Below, piece by piece: positions 2,525-61,714 of a DNA stretch of 64,000 nt; the first letter of the stretch is position 1; each line of letters starts with the position of its first letter. Made by a program: the position numbers and the translations under genes. Source of the stretch: Prevotella sp. (GTDB taxonomy: Bacteria > Bacteroidota > Bacteroidia > Bacteroidales > Bacteroidaceae); NCBI GenBank assembly GCA_017458005.1, contig JAFTGH010000035.1, positions 20,825 through 84,824 on the forward strand. Reading direction: 5' to 3'. The notes beneath the pieces were generated by a model. The model was not told the origin of the DNA. It saw only the letters and a list, made by a program, of their open reading frames with translations, and searched no databases.

Positions 2525-4369
2525 ATGGCTGAATTAGAAGTAAAAGAACTCGACCAAGTGGTTGTACGCTTCTCAGGTGATTCTGGTGATGGTATGCAAC
2601 TCGCTGGTAACATCTTCTCAACGGTGAGTGCCACCGTGGGTAATGGTATTTCTACGTTTCCAGACTATCCCGCTGATATCCGTGCCCCGCAAGGCTCACT
2701 GACTGGTGTCAGTGGCTTCCAGGTGCATATCGGTGCAGGTCAGGTGTATACCCCTGGTGACAAGTGTGATGTCTTGGTGGCAATGAATGCGGCTGCCCTG
2801 AAGACCCAGTTGAAGTATGCGAAGTCGCAGGCTACGATTATTATCGACACGGACTCCTTTGGTCCTAATGATTTGAAGAAGGCACAGTTCCAGACAGACG
2901 ATTATCTCGGTGAGTTGGGTGTTGACCCCGACCGTGTCATTCAGTGTCCGTTGACGACGATGGTGAAAGATTGTCTTGCTGATACTGGCATGGAGAATAA
3001 GGCGATTCTGAAATGTCGTAATATGTTTGCCCTCGGACTGGTCTGCTGGCTCTTCGACCGTGACCTGAGTCTGGTGAACAACTACCTGCGGGATAAGTTT
3101 GCTAAGAAACCCGCTATTGCGGAGAACAATATCAAGGTAGTGCAGGCAGGATATGACTATGGACATAACACGCACTCCTCGGCAGTCAATGTCTATCGCA
3201 TTGAGTCAAAAGAGAAGGTGCCTGGACGCTATATGGATATCACAGGTAACAAGGCGACGGCATACGGATTTATCGCTGCCGCGGAGAAGGCTGGGCTAAG
3301 ACTCTATCTGGGCTCTTATCCTATCACTCCCGCTACTGACGTGCTCCATGAGTTGTCAAAGCATAAGTCATTAGGTGTGACCACCGTGCAGTGTGAGGAC
3401 GAGATCAGTGGATGTGCCTCTGCGTTAGGAGCCTCTTTCGCAGGAGCCTTAGGTGTAACCTCTACCTCTGGTCCTGGTATCTGCTTGAAGAGCGAGGCGA
3501 TGAACCTTGCCGTTATCATGGAGTTGCCACTGGTGGTGCTTGACGTACAGCGTGGAGGTCCTGCCACGGGTCTTCCTACGAAGTCAGAGCAGACGGACCT
3601 GTTGCAGGTACTCTTCGGACGTAATGGTGAGAGTCCTATGCCTGTGCTTGCCGCTACCAGTCCTGCCGACTGCTTCGACGCTGCCTATCAGGCTTGCAAG
3701 ATTGCCTTGGAGCACATGACTCCAGTCGTGTTGTTGACTGACGCTTATGTCGCCAACGGCTCTGGTGCTTTTAAACTGCCTGAGATAGCAAAACTGGACG
3801 CTATCAATCCCCCTTATGTTCCAGAGGAACTGAAAGGCAAGTGGACTCCCTATATGCGTGCGGAGAATGGTACTCGCTATTGGGCTGTGCCTGGTCGTGA
3901 GGGCTTTACCCATATCCTCGGTGGTTTGGAGAAAGACTCAGAGACTGGCGCTATCTCTACCAATCCAGAGAACCATGACCTGATGACCCGTCTGCGTCAG
4001 CAGAAGATTGCCAATATCCAAGTTCCTGACTTGGAGGTAGAAGGCGATGTGGATGATGCAGACCTGTTGGTCGTAGGCTTTGGCTCAACCTACGGACATC
4101 TGCACTCCGCAATGGAGGAACTCCGCGCCAAGGGCTATAAGGTGGCACAGACTCATTTTAAATACCTGAATCCTCTGCCTCAGAATACTGCAGAGGTCCT
4201 CTCTAAATATAAGAAGGTAGTAGTAGCAGAGCAGAACATGGGGCAACTTGCCGCCTATCTGCGTATGAAGGTCGACAACTTCACGCCTGCCCAGTTTAAT
4301 CAGGTCAAGGGTCAGCCTTTCGTAGTAGAAGAGTTAGTCAACGCATTTGAGGATATCTTGAAAAAGTAA
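2525..4369 (+). CDS. korA: 2-oxoglutarate (2-oxoacid):ferredoxin oxidoreductase, fused gamma-alpha subunit
   Basis: A 614-residue subunit of 2-oxoglutarate:ferredoxin oxidoreductase, which makes succinyl-CoA and reduced ferredoxin or works in reverse. The N-terminal third (about residues 10-190, VVVRFSGDSGDGMQLAG) is the gamma domain. The remainder is the alpha (pyrimidine-binding and transketolase-C-like) part, with GSYPITPATDVLHEL and the conserved TSTSGPG segment. This fused architecture is usual for Bacteroidota KorA. The beta subunit korB follows 28 nt later, and that gap is built entirely of GTAAAAAG-type octamers. The pair acts in the cytoplasm as a complex. Exact 2-oxoacid preference cannot be read from the sequence; 2-oxoglutarate is the most likely. 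Confidence 0.93.
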   Translation: MAELEVKELDQVVVRFSGDSGDGMQLAGNIFSTVSATVGNGISTFPDYPADIRAPQGSLTGVSGFQVHIGAGQVYTPGDKCDVLVAMNAAALKTQLKYAKSQATIIIDTDSFGPNDLKKAQFQTDDYLGELGVDPDRVIQCPLTTMVKDCLADTGMENKAILKCRNMFALGLVCWLFDRDLSLVNNYLRDKFAKKPAIAENNIKVVQAGYDYGHNTHSSAVNVYRIESKEKVPGRYMDITGNKATAYGFIAAAEKAGLRLYLGSYPITPATDVLHELSKHKSLGVTTVQCEDEISGCASALGASFAGALGVTSTSGPGICLKSEAMNLAVIMELPLVVLDVQRGGPATGLPTKSEQTDLLQVLFGRNGESPMPVLAATSPADCFDAAYQACKIALEHMTPVVLLTDAYVANGSGAFKLPEIAKLDAINPPYVPEELKGKWTPYMRAENGTRYWAVPGREGFTHILGGLEKDSETGAISTNPENHDLMTRLRQQKIANIQVPDLEVEGDVDDADLLVVGFGSTYGHLHSAMEELRAKGYKVAQTHFKYLNPLPQNTAEVLSKYKKVVVAEQNMGQLAAYLRMKVDNFTPAQFNQVKGQPFVVEELVNAFEDILKK

Positions 4370-4397
4370 AAGGGTAAAAAGGTAAAAAAGTAAAGTT
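4366..4397 (+). repeat. Octamer repeat array filling the korA-korB gap
   Basis: Four consecutive 8-bp units of the GTAAAAAG family (4366-4373, 4374-4381, 4382-4389, 4390-4397; the last degenerate). The first unit contains the korA stop codon and the last ends at the base before the korB ATG, so the whole spacer is repeat. Confidence 0.85.
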
Positions 4398-5405
4398 ATG
4401 AGTACATATACAGCACAAGATTATAAAAAAGGACAACCACGTTGGTGTCCAGGATGTGGCGACCATTTCTTTCTTGCCTCGCTGCATAAGGCTTTGGCAG
4501 AGATTGGTGTTGCTCCTTATGATACTGCTGTTATCAGTGGTATCGGTTGCTCCAGCCGTCTGCCTCACTATATGGCGACCTACGGTATGAATACCATCCA
4601 TGGTCGTGCCGCTGCGATTGCCACAGGTGCTAAGGTTGCTAATCCCAATCTGACGGTCTGGCAGGTGTCAGGTGATGGTGACGGACTTGCCATTGGTGGC
4701 AACCATTTCATCCATGCCAATCGTCGTAACATCAATTTGAATATGATCCTGCTCAACAACCGCATCTACGGATTGACGAAAGGACAGTATTCTCCGACGA
4801 GTCCCCGTGGCTTCGTCTCTAAGTCGAGTCCTTACGGAACTGTAGAGGATCCTTTCCGTCCTGCGGAACTCTGTTTTGGAGCACGTGGACATTTCTTCGC
4901 CCGTGCCGTCGCTACGGATTCCCAAGGTACTGTAGAGATACTAAAAGCAGCCTATGAGCATAAAGGTGCTGCTGTCTGTGAGATTCTGCAGAACTGTGTT
5001 ATCTTTAATGATGGAACACATGAGAGTGTCTACAACAAGGAAGGTCGTAAGAAGAATGCCATTTATGTACGCCATGGCGAGAAACTCGTCTTTGGTGAGA
5101 ACGATGAGTTCGGACTCGTACAGCAGGGTTTTGGACTGAAGGTGGTGGAGATTGGTAAGGATGGCTATACCTTGGATGATGTCCTCGTTCATGATGCCCA
5201 TTGTGAGGACAACACCTTGCAGTTGAAACTCGCCCTCATGGGTAATGGTGACGGTTTCCCCATAGCCCTTGGTGTCATCCGTGACGTGGATGCTCCGACC
5301 TATGATGAGGCAGTACATGCACAGATTCAGGAGGTGAGCAACCAGAAGAAATACCATAACTTCACAGAGTTGCTGGAGACCAACGATATCTGGGAAGTAA
5401 AGTAA
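4398..5405 (+). CDS. korB: 2-oxoglutarate (2-oxoacid):ferredoxin oxidoreductase, beta subunit
   Basis: A 335-residue thiamine-diphosphate-binding subunit that partners KorA. Visible features: RWCPGCGDHF near the N-terminus (two cysteines, possible Fe-S ligands with a later Cys in SGIGCSSR), and the TPP/Mg motif VSGDGDGLAIGGNH followed by NNRIYGLTKGQYSPTS. Length is normal for the family. It is the second gene of a two-gene operon; a hairpin just after its stop separates it from the convergent upp gene. Supplies or uses low-potential ferredoxin, consistent with an anaerobic or fermentative lifestyle, as is also suggested by the class III nucleotide reductase in this window. Confidence 0.93.
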   Translation: MSTYTAQDYKKGQPRWCPGCGDHFFLASLHKALAEIGVAPYDTAVISGIGCSSRLPHYMATYGMNTIHGRAAAIATGAKVANPNLTVWQVSGDGDGLAIGGNHFIHANRRNINLNMILLNNRIYGLTKGQYSPTSPRGFVSKSSPYGTVEDPFRPAELCFGARGHFFARAVATDSQGTVEILKAAYEHKGAAVCEILQNCVIFNDGTHESVYNKEGRKKNAIYVRHGEKLVFGENDEFGLVQQGFGLKVVEIGKDGYTLDDVLVHDAHCEDNTLQLKLALMGNGDGFPIALGVIRDVDAPTYDEAVHAQIQEVSNQKKYHNFTELLETNDIWEVK

Positions 5406-10445: not shown

Positions 10446-11183
10446 ATGGAGCAACAATTAGATATGACACGTATTCCCAAGCATATTGCCATCATTATGG
10501 ATGGTAATGGACGATGGGCTATGGATCGTGGACTGGATCGTACGTTTGGGCACAAGGCTGGGCTTGACAACCTGGAGACTATAACCACCCTATGTTCTAA
10601 CTTAGGTGTGAAGTATCTGACAGTTTATGCCTTCTCCATAGAGAACTTCAACAGACCTGCATACGAGGTGGAGGCGTTGATGGGATTGGTCCTCAGTTTC
10701 ATCAAGATGGACCTCTTCCATAATAATAATGTGAGTTTCCACGTAGTAGGTGATCGTGAACGCCTTCCAAAGAGCGTGCAAGACAAACTGCGCTCGATGG
10801 AGGAGGAGACAGCGATGTACGATGGTATGGCGATGACGATTGCCATGGGCTATTCCTCTAAACAGGAGTTGGTGAGTGCCACAAAGAGGATTGCCCGTAA
10901 GGTTCAAAGCGGTGAGATAAGTGCTGATGACATCAGTGAGGAAACGATTAGCGAGCATCTGTGGACGGCATGGATGCCAGATCCCGACTTGCTTATCCGC
11001 ACGGGTGGCGAGATACGTATTTCCAACTACCTGCTCTGGCAGTGTGCCTATTCAGAGTTCTACTTCTGTGACACCTACTGGCCGGACTTCGGTGAGGAGG
11101 ATCTCCACAAGGCAATAGCCAGTTTCCAGAGTCGTCAGCGTCGCTTTGGTAAGACAGAGGCACAAGTGGAAGAAGAAAAGTAA
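10446..11183 (+). CDS. uppS: Isoprenyl transferase (undecaprenyl diphosphate synthase)
   Basis: Cis-prenyltransferase that condenses isopentenyl diphosphate onto farnesyl diphosphate to give the C55 lipid carrier for peptidoglycan and polysaccharides. 245 residues from ATG 10446; ATG codons at 10392 and 10425 in the same frame would overlap the PorG-like gene. The signature IAIIMDGNGRWA (catalytic Asp 19) and the downstream RTGGEIRISNYLLWQCAYSE segment are intact. Sits between the PorG-like gene and bamA. Its stop codon at 11181-11183 is inside an octamer repeat array. Confidence 0.93.
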   Translation: MEQQLDMTRIPKHIAIIMDGNGRWAMDRGLDRTFGHKAGLDNLETITTLCSNLGVKYLTVYAFSIENFNRPAYEVEALMGLVLSFIKMDLFHNNNVSFHVVGDRERLPKSVQDKLRSMEEETAMYDGMAMTIAMGYSSKQELVSATKRIARKVQSGEISADDISEETISEHLWTAWMPDPDLLIRTGGEIRISNYLLWQCAYSEFYFCDTYWPDFGEEDLHKAIASFQSRQRRFGKTEAQVEEEK

Positions 11184-11203
11184 AAAGGTAAAAAAGTAAA
11201 GAA
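11180..11203 (+). repeat. GTAAAAAG octamer array between uppS and bamA
   Basis: Three 8-bp units (11180-11187, 11188-11195, 11196-11203, the last degenerate), beginning with the base before the uppS stop codon. An inverted set of the same octamer lies at 11253-11284 in the bamA signal sequence, so the mRNA could fold back across the bamA start codon. Confidence 0.8.
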
Positions 11204-11207
11204 ATAA

Positions 11208-13895
11208 ATGAATATAAATATGACACATAAGGTTAAAGGGATGGTAAAATGGTTTTTACCTTTTTACCTTCTTACCTTTTTACCTTTAAGCGTTAACGCA
11301 CAGGATGTGATCGTTCATCCAGATATCTCGTATGCGGGAACACCCAGAACCTGCGAGATAGGTGGCATCGCTGTCAAGGGCGTAGAGGGCTATGAGGATT
11401 ATGTGCTGACAGGTTTGTCGGGTCTTACGGTAGGTCAGGAGATTACTGTTCCTGGCTCAGAGATTACGGATGCGGTGAAACGCTACTGGCGTCATGGTCT
11501 GTTCTCTCGCGTGTCAATTACGGCGGATTCTATTGTCGGCTCCAAGATATACTTGTGTATCCATCTTGCTACACGCCCTCGTGTCAGTCGCATCAACTAT
11601 AATGGCATTAAGAAGTCAGAGCGTGAGGATATGGAGGCGAAACTGGGTATTATGCGAGGCAGTCAGATTACGCCGAACATGATAGACCGTGCCAAGATTC
11701 TCGCGAAACGCTATTTTGACGACAAGGGCTTCAAGAACGCAGAGATAGAGATTGTACAGCGTGATGATGTGACAGACAATAATATGGTCATCTTGGATGT
11801 GAATATCGACAAGAAAGACAAGATGAAAGTCCGTAACATCATCTTTGAGGGCAACGAGAAACTCTCCTCCAGAAAGATCAAGGGAACGATTTTCAAGAAG
11901 GGAGCCTTTGGTAAGATCAATGAGGCTGGTAAGTTTGGTAATATCTTCAAGGCAAAGAAGTTTACCCAAGAGCGTTATGATGAGGCTAAAAAGGCACTGA
12001 TTGACAAATATAATGAGTTGGGCTATCGTGATGCCGTCATCTTGGAAGACTCCGTATGGAACAATGACGAGAAGCATGTCAACGTCTATGTGAAAGTTGA
12101 GGAGGGTCAACGTTATTATATCCGTAATATCACATGGGTTGGTAATACCGTGGTGACCACCGACTATCTGAATGCGGTGTTAGGCATGAAGAAGGGCGAT
12201 ATCTATAATCAGAAGCAGATGAACAAGCGTCTGTCGGAAGATGAGGATGCCGTGGGCAATTACTATTGGAACAATGGTTATCTCTTCTATAACCTCCAGC
12301 CCACTGAGGTGAACATCGTAGGCGACTCTATCGACTTGGAGATGCGAATCCAGGAGGGTACTCAGGCTCATATCAGCCATGTGCGTATCTATGGTAACGA
12401 CCGTCTCTATGAGGAGGTGGTTCGTCGTGAACTCCGCACCAAGCCTGGTGACCTGTTCTCTAAGGATGCCCTCCAGCGTTCTGCACGTGAGATTGCCTCT
12501 ATGGGTTATTTCGATCCAGAGAAGGTGAACCCCGATATCAAACCGAACTATGAGGATGGTACGGTGGATATCAACTGGGAGTTGGAGCAGAAGTCTAACG
12601 ACCAGTTGGAGTTCTCGCTTGGTTGGGGACAGACGGGTGTCATCGGACGTGTGGGTGTGAAGTTGAATAACTTCTCTATGCGCAACCTCTTTGGCAAGAA
12701 CAAGATGCACCGTGGTATTATGCCGATTGGTGATGGAGAGCAGTTGTCATTGTCCCTGCAGACCAATGGTCGCTATTATAGTTCTATCTCTACGGGCTAT
12801 AGCACGGGATGGTTCGGTGGTAAGCGTCCGAATGCCTTGAATGTCAGTGCTTTCTACTCAAAGCAAAGTGATATCTCCAGCAGTTATCGTAATAATGCAC
12901 TTTATAATAACTACAGTTATTATTACGGTGGTTATGGCATGTATAATAATGCCTATTACAACTATGACTCCATGCTGGACGACGATAAATATATCAAGAT
13001 GTTTGGTGCCTCTATCGGATGGGGTAAGCGCCTGCGTTGGCCTGACGACTATTTCCAGTTGTCCGTCCAGTTGTCATATACTCGTTATATGTTGCGTGAC
13101 TGGAACTACTTCATTATCTCGAACGGTAACTGTAACAACATCAACCTGGGTGTGACTCTCTCACGTACCTCTACTGATAACCAACTCTTCCCACGTCGTG
13201 GATCAGAGTTCATGGCTTCTGTCACACTCACACCGCCCTGGTCATCCTTTGACAATAAGGACTATGAGCATCTTGCCACCGACCGCACCTCCGCTACTTT
13301 CGAGAGTGAGCAGCAGGACAAGTACCGTTGGATTGAGTATCACAAGTGGAAGTTTAAGTCACGTACCTTCACCTCTCTGACCAATGGGCAGAAGTGTCTG
13401 GTGCTGATGACTCGTGTGGAACTTGGTTTGCTGGGTTCTTACAATAAATATAAGAAGTCGCCCTTCGAGACTTTCTATGTAGGTGGTGACGGTATGAGTG
13501 GCTATTCCTCTGGCTATGCGGAGGAGACGATAGGTCTGCGTGGTTACGATAACGGCTCTATCTCTAACACGGCAGCCTATGAGGCTGGAACCAGTGCTTA
13601 CTATAATGCCTATGCCTACGACCGCTTTACGCTGGAGTTGCGCTATCCGTTTATGTTGGGTAACACCACCATCTACGGACTGGGCTTCCTCGAGGGTGGT
13701 AACGCATGGGTTGATACGAAGAAGTTCAATCCGTTCGACATGAAGCGTTCTGCTGGTGTCGGTGTCCGTATCTTCCTGCCAATGGTTGGTCTGATGGGTA
13801 TCGACTGGGCTTACGGTTTCGACAAGGTATATAGTGGCAGTTCTTACTCCAAGGGAGGAAGCCAGTTCCACTTTATCTTAGGACAGGAGTTCTAG
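11208..13895 (+). CDS. bamA: Outer membrane protein assembly factor BamA
   Basis: Central, normally essential component that inserts beta-barrel proteins into the outer membrane. 895 residues: signal peptide (about 1-33, with core LPFYLLTFLPL), POTRA repeats through about residue 440, and a C-terminal 16-strand barrel ending in the aromatic FHFILGQEF, the usual C-terminal barrel signal. Family motif VGVRIFLP is present near the end. ATG codons at 11221 and 11241 are alternative starts in frame. The signal sequence is built from TTTTTACC octamers and is 87% identical over 63 bp to that of the downstream ompH gene (55 of 63 bases). Part of the uppS-bamA-skp-murI cluster. Confidence 0.95.
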   Translation: MNINMTHKVKGMVKWFLPFYLLTFLPLSVNAQDVIVHPDISYAGTPRTCEIGGIAVKGVEGYEDYVLTGLSGLTVGQEITVPGSEITDAVKRYWRHGLFSRVSITADSIVGSKIYLCIHLATRPRVSRINYNGIKKSEREDMEAKLGIMRGSQITPNMIDRAKILAKRYFDDKGFKNAEIEIVQRDDVTDNNMVILDVNIDKKDKMKVRNIIFEGNEKLSSRKIKGTIFKKGAFGKINEAGKFGNIFKAKKFTQERYDEAKKALIDKYNELGYRDAVILEDSVWNNDEKHVNVYVKVEEGQRYYIRNITWVGNTVVTTDYLNAVLGMKKGDIYNQKQMNKRLSEDEDAVGNYYWNNGYLFYNLQPTEVNIVGDSIDLEMRIQEGTQAHISHVRIYGNDRLYEEVVRRELRTKPGDLFSKDALQRSAREIASMGYFDPEKVNPDIKPNYEDGTVDINWELEQKSNDQLEFSLGWGQTGVIGRVGVKLNNFSMRNLFGKNKMHRGIMPIGDGEQLSLSLQTNGRYYSSISTGYSTGWFGGKRPNALNVSAFYSKQSDISSSYRNNALYNNYSYYYGGYGMYNNAYYNYDSMLDDDKYIKMFGASIGWGKRLRWPDDYFQLSVQLSYTRYMLRDWNYFIISNGNCNNINLGVTLSRTSTDNQLFPRRGSEFMASVTLTPPWSSFDNKDYEHLATDRTSATFESEQQDKYRWIEYHKWKFKSRTFTSLTNGQKCLVLMTRVELGLLGSYNKYKKSPFETFYVGGDGMSGYSSGYAEETIGLRGYDNGSISNTAAYEAGTSAYYNAYAYDRFTLELRYPFMLGNTTIYGLGFLEGGNAWVDTKKFNPFDMKRSAGVGVRIFLPMVGLMGIDWAYGFDKVYSGSSYSKGGSQFHFILGQEF
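11253..11284 (+). repeat. TTTTTACC octamers encoding BamA signal-peptide core
   Basis: Four 8-bp units of TTTTTACC (the third is TTCTTACC), coding part of FLPFYLLTFLP. This is the reverse complement of the intergenic octamer. Because 8 is not a multiple of 3, three units cover all three phases and every phase reads as hydrophobic residues without stops. Confidence 0.85.
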
Positions 13896-13900
13896 TAAAG

Positions 13901-13964
13901 GTAAAAAAGTAAAAAGGTAAAAAAGTAAAAAGGTAAAAAAGTAAAAAGGTAAAAAGGTAAAAAT
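13901..13964 (+). repeat. GTAAAAAG octamer array upstream of ompH
   Basis: Eight uninterrupted 8-bp units alternating GTAAAAAA and GTAAAAAG, the longest and purest array in the window, starting 5 nt after the bamA stop codon. Inverted copies lie at 14087-14117 in the next gene. Copy number is a good candidate for strain variation. Confidence 0.9.
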
Positions 13965-14037
13965 AGAAAAGCGAAAACCTTTAAACCTTGCTGAAGTTTT
14001 TACGTCATAGAGATGTAACATAAAAAAGAGTACGATT

Positions 14038-14589
14038 ATGAAAAGTCAGAGTATTAAAAATAAGGTAATGGGTATGGTGAAATGGGTTTTACCTTTTTAC
14101 CTCTTTACCTTTTTACCTTTAAACGCTTCCGCACAGAAGTTCGCCTTGTTGGATATGGACTATATCTTGAAGAATGTTCCTGCCTATGAGCGTGCTAATG
14201 AGCAGTTGGCACAGGTGTCCAAGAAGTGGCAGGCAGAGGTGGAGGCACTTCAGACAGAGGCGCAGACGATGTACAAGGACTACCAGAAGGAAGTTGTATT
14301 TCTCTCTCAGGAGCAGAAGAAGGCTCGCCAGGACGCTATCATGGAGAAAGAGCGTGAGGCTTCTGAGTTGAAGAAGAAATACTTTGGTCCTGAGGGTGAG
14401 TTGTTCAAGAAGCGCACTGCATTGATGTCTCCCATCCAGGAGGAGATCTATAATGCGGTGAGTGAGATAGCGGACCTTCGTGGCTATCAACTGGTGCTTG
14501 ATCGTGCCAGTGACAGTGGTATCATCTTTGGCTCCCCCAAAGTAGATATCTCCAGTGAGGTATTGAGTAGATTAGGATATTCAAATTAA
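14038..14589 (+). CDS. OmpH/Skp family periplasmic chaperone (copy 1)
   Basis: 183-residue OmpH-family chaperone that escorts unfolded outer membrane proteins to BamA. Long signal region (about 1-32) with core LPFYLFTFLPL encoded by octamer repeats, then FALLDMDYILKNVPAYERA and a charged coiled-coil hairpin (about 50-125) rich in Glu, Gln and Lys, closing with a short hydrophobic tail. First of three tandem Skp-like genes after bamA, 22 nt before the second. The Skp trimer architecture (tentacle-like helices) fits the predicted coiled coil. Confidence 0.9.
   Translation: MKSQSIKNKVMGMVKWVLPFYLFTFLPLNASAQKFALLDMDYILKNVPAYERANEQLAQVSKKWQAEVEALQTEAQTMYKDYQKEVVFLSQEQKKARQDAIMEKEREASELKKKYFGPEGELFKKRTALMSPIQEEIYNAVSEIADLRGYQLVLDRASDSGIIFGSPKVDISSEVLSRLGYSN
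14074..14136 (+). repeat. Signal-sequence duplicate of bamA 11241-11303
   Basis: Sixty-three bases matching the bamA signal region at 55 positions with no gaps, from the internal ATG through the Ala-Gln cleavage site. The two mature proteins are unrelated, so the export signal has been copied or both grew from the same octamer element (14087-14117 here). Confidence 0.8.
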
Positions 14590-33123: not shown

Positions 33124-33155
33124 CGATATATCGATATAACGATATAACGACATAA
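33124..33155 (+). repeat. CGATATAT octamer array upstream of tyrS
   Basis: Four 8-bp units beginning CGA (CGATATAT, two CGATATAA, CGACATAA), 13 nt before the tyrS ATG. Degenerate units appear to extend upstream to about 33105. Confidence 0.85.
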
Positions 33156-37863: not shown

Positions 37864-37912
37864 TTTTTACCTTTTTACTTTTTTTACCTATTTACCCTTT
37901 CGCCTTTTTACT
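37864..37912 (+). repeat. Degenerate TTTTTACC octamer array before prmC
   Basis: About six 8-bp units (TTTTTACC, TTTTTACT, TATTTACC and similar), the reverse complement of the intergenic GTAAAAAG family, between ribD and the prmC promoter. Confidence 0.7.
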
Positions 37913-37928
37913 TTTATGTGTACCTTTG
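37898..37928 (+). promoter_or_regulatory. prmC promoter, almost leaderless
   Basis: TTTC at 37898-37901 (near-match to TTTG), a 19-bp spacer, and TACCTTTG at 37921-37928, leaving only 4 nt before the ATG at 37933. Confidence 0.55.
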
Positions 37929-49671: not shown

Positions 49672-50259
49672 TCACTCTGAGAAAACGGTGACGACACCAT
49701 TAGGACCAGCAGTGTGGGCGTTACGATATTGGGAGAGTCCTTTGTCACCCTCTTGTCCCTCTATCAGCAGTCCTTTATTGTTCAGGTCGTATTTATTACC
49801 ACATTTCGAGCAGGTGACGATACCAGAGCCTTTCTTGTCCAGTATCATGCGGTAGTTGGGACTCGCCATGTTGTTTTCCCTTCGTACACAATTAGGACAT
49901 TGCACGTCGTAAGCGGTAAAAGAGTAATCGCCTAGGTTCTGAACGCCTACAATAATACCATTGTTTAGTCCAAGGCGTAGATTGTTACGCAACTCCTCTG
50001 CAGTCTCTATCTGGCGTGAACTAGCCCCTTGGTTATTCTCAAAAATCAGATACTTAGAACCTCCTCTTGATTCTTCCGTAATCATACAGAAGATGCCATG
50101 AACAACAGGATTGATAGCCACAGCGAGTGTCTGATCAAGATGGATGCTGTTGTCATAGATGAAGCGGCAAGGCCATGACGTATACTCGTTCTCTGCCCCA
50201 CAACTGGTGAGAAGTAAAAGGGAAAAAAGGTAAAAAGGTAAAAGAATGACCTTTCTCAT
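49672..50259 (-). CDS. Hypothetical lipoprotein with zinc-ribbon-like CxxC pairs
   Basis: 195 residues. Signal and lipobox LLLLTSC (Cys 20), encoded partly by the TTTTTACC octamers (50214-50245) as LPFYLFSL. Two CxxC pairs at VQCPNCVRR and VTCSKCGNKY could coordinate one metal. I do not know the family. Start overlaps the argH stop by 4 bp (ATGA), so it is coupled to argH. Confidence 0.75.
   Translation of the reverse strand: MRKVILLPFYLFSLLLLTSCGAENEYTSWPCRFIYDNSIHLDQTLAVAINPVVHGIFCMITEESRGGSKYLIFENNQGASSRQIETAEELRNNLRLGLNNGIIVGVQNLGDYSFTAYDVQCPNCVRRENNMASPNYRMILDKKGSGIVTCSKCGNKYDLNNKGLLIEGQEGDKGLSQYRNAHTAGPNGVVTVFSE
50214..50245 (-). repeat. Octamers encoding a lipoprotein signal core
   Basis: Four 8-bp units of the GTAAAAAG family (plus strand), which read on the minus strand as the hydrophobic signal-peptide core of the lipoprotein. 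Confidence 0.8.
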
Positions 50260-58084: not shown

Positions 58085-60205
58085 TTATTGGATGCCTATC
58101 TCTTTGAGCAGGCGGTCGGCATGTCCCCAACGGTCCATCATATAGAGCATGTAGCGAATGTCCACGTTGATGGTGCGTGCCAGTTGACGGTCGAAGAAGA
58201 TATCGCTGGAGAGACTGTCCCAGTTGCCGTCGAAGGCAAGACCAAGCAGTTCTCCCTTATTATTAAATATAGGTGAGCCGGAGTTACCACCTGTGATGTC
58301 ATTGTTCGACAGGAAACAGAGTTGGAGGGTACCGGTCAAAGGGTCAGCATATTTGCCGAAGTCCTTGGCAGAGAGCAGTTCATGCATCACAGGCTCGGCG
58401 AAATACTCGAAGTTCTCGTCAGCCTTCTGCATCTTCTCCCAGAGACTGCGTGCCGTCGTGTAGTAGCCCGAGGGTCGTCCGCCCAGTGTGTACTCACCAA
58501 TCTGTCCGTAGGTCATACGCATGGTGAAGTTAGCGTCTGAGTAGTTGGGCATATCCTGTTCCATGCGCAGTTTGGCGGCACAGAGATACTTCTCCTGTTC
58601 TGCGATTTTGATACTGAGTTGTTTTCGGTCCGCATTGATCTTTGCCAACAACTCGTTAAGTGCCAGTCCGTACTGGATACCTAAGTCATTGTAAAAACCT
58701 TTCTTGTTGAAATAGATGGGCTTGTCGCTCATCAGCACAGATTTCCTATAGAGTGCGTTGGCATAGGCGGTATAGTCGCCATGGAACTTTTGGTCGATGG
58801 TCTCATAGAACTCAGGCAGATAGTACTCATCCGTCATCTGCTCACGGTAGTTCTTCAACAGTGCCGCCAGTATCTCGATGTCGGTAGCCTCATCCCATTC
58901 GTTGCTGTTGTCATCAAACTGGTGGTATTGTTTCTTGGGCTTATCCTCAGGACCTTTGACGGGCATGCCCCAGTTCATACGCCAGGCGCGGCTGCTCAGT
59001 TCGTCCTGCGCGAAGAAGGTCTCGATAAACAGCATACGGGCACGGGTGATGGCAAGGCGTTTTCCGTAGAGTTCAGCCATCTTGTCGAAGTCGAGCAGTC
59101 CTTTCAGGTATTCCGTAGAGTCCTGCCAATGCTTCAGTCTCACCTCGAAGTCACGCTTCTGCTGGACGAGTCCGATGGAGTCGATGCACTTATTCATACC
59201 GATGGAGTTCTTCCAGTAGTTGGAGGAGTGGGCGTATTTGGAGTCGTACTTGATTCGGATAGCCTCGTCGGCACGCATGTGACGTAGCATGATCTCCTGC
59301 TTGACACCACGCACCTGTGCACGTGGGGCGTTGATGGCATCATGACGCTCTTGGATGCCATAACTGCTGAGGTAACGACTGGTAGAGCCAGGATATCCTA
59401 ATATCATGGCGAAGTCACCAGGCTTATAGCCCTCCATAGAGACAGGTGCCCATGATTTGGGGTGGTAGGGCACATTGTCCTTGGAGTATTTCGCAGGACC
59501 GTTCGTCTTGGCATCCGCATAGATGCGGAACACACTGTAGTCACAGGTCTGGCGGGGCCACATCCAGTTATCGGTCTCCCCACCGAACTTACCCATCGAC
59601 TTGGGTACGGCGAATACCAGGCGTACATCCTCGAAGTCACGATAGGTGGTCAGATAGTATTTGTTACCCTCATAGAAAGGCAGGATCTCCACACGCAGGG
59701 TGGAGTCTTGTTGACGGATGCTCTTCTGCCATGCGTTCTGCACGGAGTCCACAAACGCCTCTACCTTCGTGATGGGCAACGCGTCCAGTCCGAGTGCGTT
59801 GAGGCTGTCTGTCACGTCCTTCTGGTCCACCATAAAACTGACGAAGAGGTCCTCGTTAGGCAGTTCCTCCTCATACGAGTTGGCGATGAAACCGTTGAGC
59901 ATATAGTCGTGCTCTACGGTAGAATGGCTGCGAATAGCCTCAAAGCCACAGTGGTGGTTGGTGAATACCAGTCCGTCGGGTGACACCACGACTCCCGAGC
60001 AGTAGCCACCGAAGTTGACGACAGCGTTCTTCACGGCATTGTCACTTTGGTACAGTTGCTCCTGTGGTAACTGGAAACCATACTGTTTCATCTGTTCATA
60101 CACTGCCGTAGGCAGGTTGTAGAGTGTCCACATGCCCTCGTCGGCTTTTAAAGGTAAAAAGGTGAACAGGTAAAAAGGTAAAATAAATAAAAGTGCTTTT
60201 TTCAT
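58085..60205 (-). CDS. S46 family dipeptidyl peptidase (DPP7-like)
   Basis: 706 residues. Signal peptide MKKALLFILPFYLFTFLPLKA, whose core is octamer-encoded. His 85 (TNHHCGF) and Ser 642 (GGNSGSP) match the catalytic His and Ser of S46. The residue 18 after the Ser is Gly, as in DPP7 (hydrophobic P1), where DPP11 (Asp/Glu P1) has Arg; this assignment is inference. Releases dipeptides from oligopeptides in the periplasm, supporting amino-acid feeding. Confidence 0.9.
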   Translation of the reverse strand: MKKALLFILPFYLFTFLPLKADEGMWTLYNLPTAVYEQMKQYGFQLPQEQLYQSDNAVKNAVVNFGGYCSGVVVSPDGLVFTNHHCGFEAIRSHSTVEHDYMLNGFIANSYEEELPNEDLFVSFMVDQKDVTDSLNALGLDALPITKVEAFVDSVQNAWQKSIRQQDSTLRVEILPFYEGNKYYLTTYRDFEDVRLVFAVPKSMGKFGGETDNWMWPRQTCDYSVFRIYADAKTNGPAKYSKDNVPYHPKSWAPVSMEGYKPGDFAMILGYPGSTSRYLSSYGIQERHDAINAPRAQVRGVKQEIMLRHMRADEAIRIKYDSKYAHSSNYWKNSIGMNKCIDSIGLVQQKRDFEVRLKHWQDSTEYLKGLLDFDKMAELYGKRLAITRARMLFIETFFAQDELSSRAWRMNWGMPVKGPEDKPKKQYHQFDDNSNEWDEATDIEILAALLKNYREQMTDEYYLPEFYETIDQKFHGDYTAYANALYRKSVLMSDKPIYFNKKGFYNDLGIQYGLALNELLAKINADRKQLSIKIAEQEKYLCAAKLRMEQDMPNYSDANFTMRMTYGQIGEYTLGGRPSGYYTTARSLWEKMQKADENFEYFAEPVMHELLSAKDFGKYADPLTGTLQLCFLSNNDITGGNSGSPIFNNKGELLGLAFDGNWDSLSSDIFFDRQLARTINVDIRYMLYMMDRWGHADRLLKEIGIQ
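60154..60185 (-). repeat. Octamers encoding S46 peptidase signal core
   Basis: Four 8-bp units of the GTAAAAAG type on the plus strand (second one degenerate, GTGAACAG), read on the minus strand as the FILPFYLFTFLP part of the signal peptide. Confidence 0.8.
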
Positions 60206-61657: not shown

Positions 61658-61661
61658 AATT

Positions 61662-61709
61662 CGTTATCTCATTATTTCGTTATCTCGATATATCGATATA
61701 TCGTTATCT
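61662..61709 (-). repeat. CGATATAT/CGTTATCT octamer array
   Basis: Six 8-bp units with CG (once CA) at every eighth base (61662, 61670, 61678, 61686, 61694, 61702) filling the gap between the SpmAB and flippase genes. Confidence 0.85.
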
Positions 61710-61714
61710 CGCCC

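Follow-up and report, generated by a model that had tools for sequence, protein, structure and literature searches.

The usual view of signal peptides is that they are loosely constrained and drift through point mutations. Repeat DNA can be tolerated in protein genes at permissive sites, as with the palindromic elements of Rickettsia, which lie within such genes. Repeats in the coding region of a leader peptide are also already known: PMC3960869 describes CTCTT repeats there in the opa genes of Neisseria. Here we analyse a stretch of 64,000 nucleotides from Prevotella sp. (GenBank assembly GCA_017458005.1, contig JAFTGH010000035.1, positions 20,825 to 84,824, forward strand), called the window below. 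In its genes bamA and ompH, the hydrophobic core of the signal peptide (SP) is encoded by an octamer repeat, and a second array of this octamer, in the inverse orientation, lies in the leader before each gene. Judging from the comparisons below, the genus probably has an exchangeable cassette that starts at the upstream gene's stop codon, runs as far as the SP cleavage site and is often an imperfect inverted repeat.

SPs are predicted from sequence features throughout. Arrays are located by a scan for TTTTTACC periodicity, with Tandem Repeats Finder (TRF) as second tool. The scan finds 8 octamer arrays in the window, 5 of which are also in the TRF list. The original prediction, made from the letters alone, held that four SP cores here are built from the octamer and read LPFYLFTFLPL or nearly so. 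The arrays, of TTTTTACC units, are indeed found in all four (TRF finds 3). The core peptides are LPFYLLTFLPL in BamA, LPFYLFTFLPL in OmpH copy 1, LPFYLFSLLLL in a lipoprotein and LPFYLFTFLPL in an S46 peptidase. Alignment confirms that the SP regions of BamA (11241-11303) and OmpH (14074-14136) share 55 of 63 bases. It had also been claimed that all frames of the repeat are hydrophobic and free of stops, and this is borne out: every frame reads the octapeptide cycle FLPFYLFT, because 8 mod 3 is 2. Read from the sequence, the opposite strand (GGTAAAAA) has one TAA per 24 bases. The bamA-ompH segment is laid out as follows.

11176..11200, + strand: A-rich array in the leader upstream of bamA, in GGTAAAAA orientation; it overlaps the stop codon of uppS (array scan, score 19)
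11208..11303, + strand: bamA SP coding region, MNINMTHKVKGMVKWFLPFYLLTFLPLSVNAQ (sequence, orthologue comparison)
11253..11287, + strand: 4.4-unit TTTTTACC array; codes for the hydrophobic core in the BamA SP (TRF, array scan)
11304..13895, + strand: mature BamA with POTRA domains, 92% identical in the G461 orthologue (orthologue comparison, Pfam)
13896..14136, + strand: putatively exchanged cassette, ompH spacer plus SP (alignment with L180)
13897..13963, + strand: A-rich array of 8.4 units, GGTAAAAA and AAGTAAAA alternating, directly 3' of the bamA stop, in the ompH leader (TRF, array scan)
13964..14037, + strand: remainder of the ompH leader, with GAAGTTTTnACGTC, partly kept in relatives, within the exchanged block (alignment of relatives)
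14038..14136, + strand: ompH SP coding region; the G461 counterpart is MKKVILMMIMCVATVSLHAQ (orthologue comparison)
14087..14120, + strand: TTTTTACC array; codes for the hydrophobic core in the OmpH SP (TRF, array scan)
14137..14589, + strand: mature OmpH (orthologue comparison, Pfam)

The window's genome, G000 below, measures 3.05 Mb. It contains 43 copies of an exact 16-mer of the octamer and 0 of the reversed control, so the abundance of the octamer is not chance. A 75-base query spanning the BamA SP has 74 matches. Reading 44 loci around matches (1 of them inside the window) and a 464-kb sample that includes the window yields at least 25 octamer SPs: 24 in the 43 loci and the window, and 1 in the sample near C52:113,800. 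The array L074:876, in a doubtful open reading frame (ORF), is excluded from this count. SP arrays in this genome are mostly 29-37 bases long and in frame, which argues against repeat-number variation that shifts the frame.

A Pfam scan covered 24 of the 25 proteins, several of them cut at the end of a locus. It finds many families: GH106, apiosidase-like, GH2, GH97, GH5, S41, S46, M16, S9-like, trypsin-like/TPR, TPR, FKBP, redoxin, DUF1573, metallophosphatase, outer membrane efflux, SusD, BatD, OmpH and BamA; 3 of the 24 have no match. Among 22 of the G000 octamer SPs the n-regions are shared as well, with a score of at least 14 in 25 of 231 pairs, versus 42 of 3741 pairs of ordinary SPs.

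The orientation of the arrays follows their position. Across the 43 loci and the window, each of the 38 arrays classified in codirectional spacers is A-rich on the coding strand (GGTAAAAA). All 25 SP arrays, 24 in those loci and the window and 1 in the C52 sample, are T-rich on it (TTTTTACC). Of the remaining arrays, 4 are called convergent, 2 divergent, and 2 lie within ORFs, away from the N-terminal end. These two have opposite orientations, and the ORF around the T-rich one is probably false. The other, L016:695-730, reads KVKGLKGKKVK without a stop inside a long ORF, and is the only internal coding array seen in the A-rich orientation.

SP arrays usually have a partner. By hand tally, a leader array of inverse polarity precedes the start codon in 17 of the 19 octamer-SP genes that have a spacer, compared with 4 of 198 other sampled genes (Fisher p about 1e-19). 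Leader arrays are counted here from a score of at least 14, and spacers from at least 18 nt for SP genes and 20 nt for the others; one gene with a misplaced start, in L027, was moved by hand out of the latter set. The two exceptions are L010, whose short array is below the threshold, and L032. None of the 6 octamer-SP genes with an overlapping or abutting upstream gene has a leader array.

Orthologous starts were compared next to this. For BamA and OmpH they were read in 50 genomes of the genus. A single BamA scan, giving more than 595 loci, supplied a further set, of which the best 80 were read; their labels are Prevotella, Xylanibacter, Prevotellaceae, Bacteroidales or bacterium, and many are ruminant-derived. 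Starts were chosen mechanically, and some are not placeable (e.g. G233 BamA, G550 OmpH). For S46, BatD and an S9-type peptidase, 15 genomes each were covered.

In other species or genes, leader and SP are paired through other repeats: GGTGAAAA, AGTGAAAA, AGTGAATA, AGTGATAA, ATGATAAA, ATGAGAAA, ATGAAGA and GC-rich ones, giving SP cores such as LFTIHCSLFTS and LSFIISPLSFS. A leader/SP complementarity of at least 14 is found in 27% of 126 BamA loci versus 4.6% when permuted, and in 8.8% of 125 OmpH loci versus 0.75%. The table of leader/SP rows has 299 entries, 215 of which have no recognised family in either arm. Where both arms are recognised, the family is concordant in 36 of 41 rows (permuted mean 11.6, maximum 21 in 2000). 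Without the octamer/octamer rows this is still 17 of 22 (permuted mean 3.4, maximum 10). With at least one concordant row in each of eight families, a purely octamer-specific story is ruled out. The original prediction did see the repeats in the SPs; it missed that leader and SP change as a unit and that other repeats behave alike.

The matching is partly gene-specific. Over 16 genomes and five genes, a score of at least 12 is reached by 24 of 80 leaders with their own SP, by 31 of 320 with another gene's SP from the same genome, and by 91 of 1200 with the same gene's SP from another genome. The own SP is the best match in 15 of 80. In G306, BamA, BatD and S9 use three different families, with own scores of 22, 17.5 and 20 versus 10, 8 and 8 for the best other gene. 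In array-blind samples, own scores of at least 15 occur in 3 of 82 (G000), 0 of 43 (G559) and 1 of 38 (G515) SP genes, and in 1 of 122, 0 of 49 and 0 of 62 non-SP genes respectively. The single non-SP gene is an octamer SP missed by the simple SP detector.

GC-rich inverted pairs are clear in L223 (ompH) and L237 (bamA), and fainter in the bamA of L254 and L233. They yield odd SPs with GRGWGWV or LPSGRLGGGLVG. Separately, small GC-rich hairpins such as GAGGCTTCGCCTC stand directly 5' of the A-rich array in the bamA leaders of L090, L100, L184 and, partly, L197. A palindrome centre at the junction of the n-region and the hydrophobic region was also considered; it is only weakly above controls (mean 5.26 versus 3.93, 4.29 and 4.37, with two genes entered twice) and was dropped.

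Amplification of the octamer is largely but not strictly confined to the genus. In a draw from the genus, the 16-mer is present in 123 of 299 genomes, the window's included, with up to 53 copies. In a draw from the family it is present in 13 of 301: 8 of the genus, again including the window's genome, and 5 of other genera with 1 to 5 copies. From the order, 10 of 198 other genomes have one copy each, and the reversed control matched in 16 genomes. Two genomes of genus g10 in the same family, G060 and G166, have 4 and 5 copies; the octamer may also have expanded there. The close relatives G000 and G461 have 43 versus 0 copies, so the family expands or vanishes quickly.

G461 is the kind of relative lacking the repeat with which the original prediction had proposed to compare. 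Its OmpH, S46, BatD and S9-type peptidase have non-octamer SPs, on mature parts that are 96, 87, 92 and 84% identical to those of G000, and the array at 13897-13963 in the ompH leader is not present. In BamA, its SP resembles an octamer form that has decayed. In S46, BatD and the S9-type peptidase the SP type flips repeatedly with the mature part conserved. The octamer SP of the S9-type is common to G000, G536 and G306 and absent from G461 and G377; as far as predicted SPs go, this gene shows that octamer SPs can be lost.

The expectation that the peptide tracks the repeat agrees with all cases: the 23 distinct LPFY-type cores among BamA and OmpH SPs all read as TTTTTACC-like units, and no LPFY-type SP on unrelated DNA occurs among these loci. 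The first core codon is the leucine codon TTA in 22 of the 23, and TTA makes up 8.9% of leucine codons in sampled genes. The further idea that the repeat is a source of export signals stands in part. It does build SPs. New genes gaining secretion by insertion is the part left unsupported: across species, BamA, OmpH, BatD, S46 and the S9-type offer no case of a non-exported protein newly gaining secretion. Orthologues of these five without the octamer have an SP-like N-terminus wherever the start is readable, so the change is one SP replaced by another. Read from these sequences, the repeat builds export signals by swapping tags on already exported proteins, not by recruiting new ones.

These replacements recur. 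On a FastTree tree of 126 mature BamA sequences, the SP family changed 37 times by parsimony and array presence 24 times, where the tree is unrooted, 33 of 123 inner branches are weakly supported and all ordinary SPs count as one state. OmpH array presence changed 14 times. The replacement covers a block. The sister pairs L208/L210, L193/L197 and L089/L184, with mature DNA identities of 90.3, 94.3 and 92.4%, can be aligned as far as the uppS end and again from about the cleavage site, and only poorly in between; in L208/L210 the final ~20 bases before the cleavage site are alike too.

The reverse is also seen, with blocks more alike than both of their flanks. Between G000 and L180, the ompH spacer plus SP is identical in 196 of 201 aligned bases (97.5%). 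Elsewhere the same two are 81.4% (uppS), 83.4% (mature bamA), 68% (bamA leader plus SP) and 85.4% (mature ompH) identical. The relatives L088, L177, L179 and L181 are without the ompH array and SP of G000, and L088 retains part of the leader. The bamA block of L183/L105 is about 93% identical versus 72% in the mature part, and L104, the sister of L105, has a different, degenerate block. For L195/L201 the figures are 88% and 71%. In all three pairs a segment is more similar than both flanks, which are about 70-85% identical, as expected of a short tract exchanged horizontally. The right edge of the shared block is near the cleavage site in G000/L180 and L183/L105, and near the array end in L195/L201. 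Among BamA pairs with a mature identity of 0.70-0.78, block identity is at least 0.75 in 22 of 140 octamer pairs versus 5 of 2832 ordinary ones, a contrast that the shared array inflates; with the last 62 bases of the block left out it is 9 of 140 versus 10 of 2832. The motif GAAGTTTTnACGTC before ompH (13964-14037) is kept in some relatives whose SPs differ, and is perhaps a regulatory site.

The arrays, their polarity and pairing, the family matches across genes and species, the replacement of most of the block in sisters and the near-identity of cassettes despite diverged flanks can all be read from the sequences. The cassette would have arisen and moved as follows. Its leader arm is an A-rich short tandem array, which may supply the stop codon of the upstream gene; its SP arm is the T-rich complement, placed within the SP-coding sequence. 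Such T-rich arrays encode Phe, Leu, Tyr, Thr, Ser and Ile in the frames used, and are therefore tolerated at the hydrophobic core. The inverted pair would first be made by copying at the DNA level, for example template switching, with the T-rich arm as reverse complement of the leader array. Exchange would be short-tract recombination of transferred DNA, and n-regions common to unrelated genes suggest that cassettes also move among the genes of one genome. If leader and SP are exchanged together, the integrity of the cassette would explain the matching families, once a pair exists. In the window's species, it is the octamer family that has expanded. More tentatively, rumen Prevotella could share a pool of inverted-pair cassettes that circulate between species and unrelated genes, with tags evolving by exchange instead of point mutation; in such a pool, the antisense of an A-rich leader repeat would be a hydrophobic export signal by virtue of the genetic code.

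Several observations weigh against exchangeable cassettes. Clear transfers are few: G000/L180, the four BamA loci L183, L105, L195 and L201, and perhaps L207/L108. In 15 listed pairs the leader plus n-region is more alike than the mature part; 6 of these lack a recognised array, so the likeness is not peculiar to arrays, and in some (L133-L135) it may have been conserved by descent. The family is found in the SP alone in 29 of 299 rows and in the leader alone in 14, and 6 of 25 octamer SPs have no leader array. S46 has none in all five genomes where its SP is of the octamer type. Some leaders, 11 of 80, match the SP of another gene in the same genome (at least 12) better than their own, mostly within the octamer family. 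Pairing is rare in the 200-kb samples of G559 and G515 (0/43 and 1/38). The permutations ignore relatedness, the repeat families were defined after looking, and many of the genomes are metagenome assemblies.

Template switching might also do all the work, overwriting the SP core in place with a reverse-complement copy of its own leader array, with no transfer of a cassette. PMC8794818 presents it as a known route to reverse-complement copies that keeps stems paired. It would suit the gene-specific matching of several families inside one genome and the finding that a nearby segment, reverse-complemented, gives the derived arm. The GC-rich inverted pairs (OmpH L223, BamA L237) fit too, and they indicate that hydrophobicity is not the cause of the match. 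As sole mechanism it is unlikely, however: n-regions travel with the core, species with diverged flanks share entire blocks, unpaired parts too, at 88-98% identity, octamer-family leaders often match another gene's SP as well as their own, and some octamer SPs have no leader array. An unconverted relative with the same leader was sought in the aligned sister pairs and clades; both arms differ there, and no single-event reconstruction was found. A different thought is that dispersed repeats land or expand separately where they are tolerated, A-rich after stop codons and T-rich in SPs. The repeat is indeed genome-wide, arrays precede genes of non-exported proteins in G000 too, and S46 carries an SP array alone. 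Against such independent settlement stand the co-occurrence of 17/19 versus 4/198 and the matching in G306, G377 and G512, which follows the gene and not the genome; both make it highly doubtful.

It could also be that selection keeps the arms complementary, with an mRNA hairpin around the start codon controlling translation or export. The folding energy of the ompH block is -57.7 kcal/mol (z -4.76), with the start codon between the arms, and the families change in both arms together; the bamA block is weaker, with a z of -2.2 and 6 of 200 shuffles folding as well. PMC3155529 reports that translation in P. bryantii is not inhibited by strong structure lying 20 bp upstream of the start, so a leader/SP hairpin need not be harmful. 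It also reports, for the same Prevotella bryantii, that a structure of -5.2 kcal/mol over the Shine-Dalgarno region lowers protein five-fold, which speaks against the hairpin. So do leader arrays without an SP partner and SP arrays without a leader, both of which occur. Mismatches show no preference for G-U over A-C, at 50:123 in 82 own pairs and 272:655 in 366 cross pairs, with two genes entering twice. RNA selection is not favoured, and such a hairpin seems quite improbable as the cause of the pairing.

The remaining octamer arrays of the window are these.

50214..50243, - strand: TTTTTACC array in the SP of the lipoprotein 49672-50259, LPFYLFSLLLLTSC (array scan)
60150..60183, - strand: TTTTTACC array in the SP of the S46 peptidase 58085-60205 (array scan)
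4361..4394, + strand: A-rich intergenic array between the codirectional genes 2525-4369 and 4398-5405 (array scan)
37864..37915, no strand assigned: octamer array in a divergent spacer, T-rich on the + strand (TRF, array scan)

The lipoprotein gene has no leader array, and its start overlaps the gene upstream. The S46 peptidase gene is likewise without one, with a spacer of 6 nt. TRF lists two different octamer arrays in or near intergenic spaces, at 61661-61711 (TCGTTATC) and 33124-33155 (CGATATAA), possibly further repeat families of the same kind. Elsewhere in G000, the octamer array L039:1482-1547 is flanked by two apparent tRNA genes, recognised by eye only.

Even BamA thus has an SP that changes blockwise, between species at least 90% identical in mature BamA DNA, and the replacing DNA often mirrors the gene's own leader. 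Similar SPs are then no sign that proteins share descent. The origin of SPs becomes testable, as DNA-level copying or gene flow versus selection on sequence, and the cassettes may offer a natural set of interchangeable export tags for Prevotella. A search of titles and abstracts in the open PMC literature found no report of leader-matched, exchangeable SP cassettes.

Known systems share parts of this arrangement. Like the Rickettsia elements, the arrays are repeat DNA inside genes at permissive sites; unlike them, they sit at the SP, in a single orientation and usually with a partner array in the leader. They also sit in genes such as bamA, which is essential in other organisms, and this is one of the differences from opa. 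The opa repeats of PMC3960869 are likewise short and tandem, have a unit that is not a multiple of three and encode part of the leader (signal) peptide, a description that applies to 25 SPs here. They switch expression by frameshift (PMC3960869), whereas the Prevotella arrays have about four imperfect units, pair with a leader array of inverse orientation and are present in no fewer than 25 genes of a single genome. Mutations by template switching, as described in PMC8794818, are similar in being short-range reverse-complement copies with both arms changing together; they are studied there in RNA genes, whereas in Prevotella one arm is protein-coding and the whole block is shared between species. 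The coding palindromes of nematomorph mitochondrial genes, described in PMC6649704, are also inverted repeats that overlap coding sequence. Both of their arms encode conserved protein, whereas the Prevotella pair joins a leader arm to a fast-changing SP arm.

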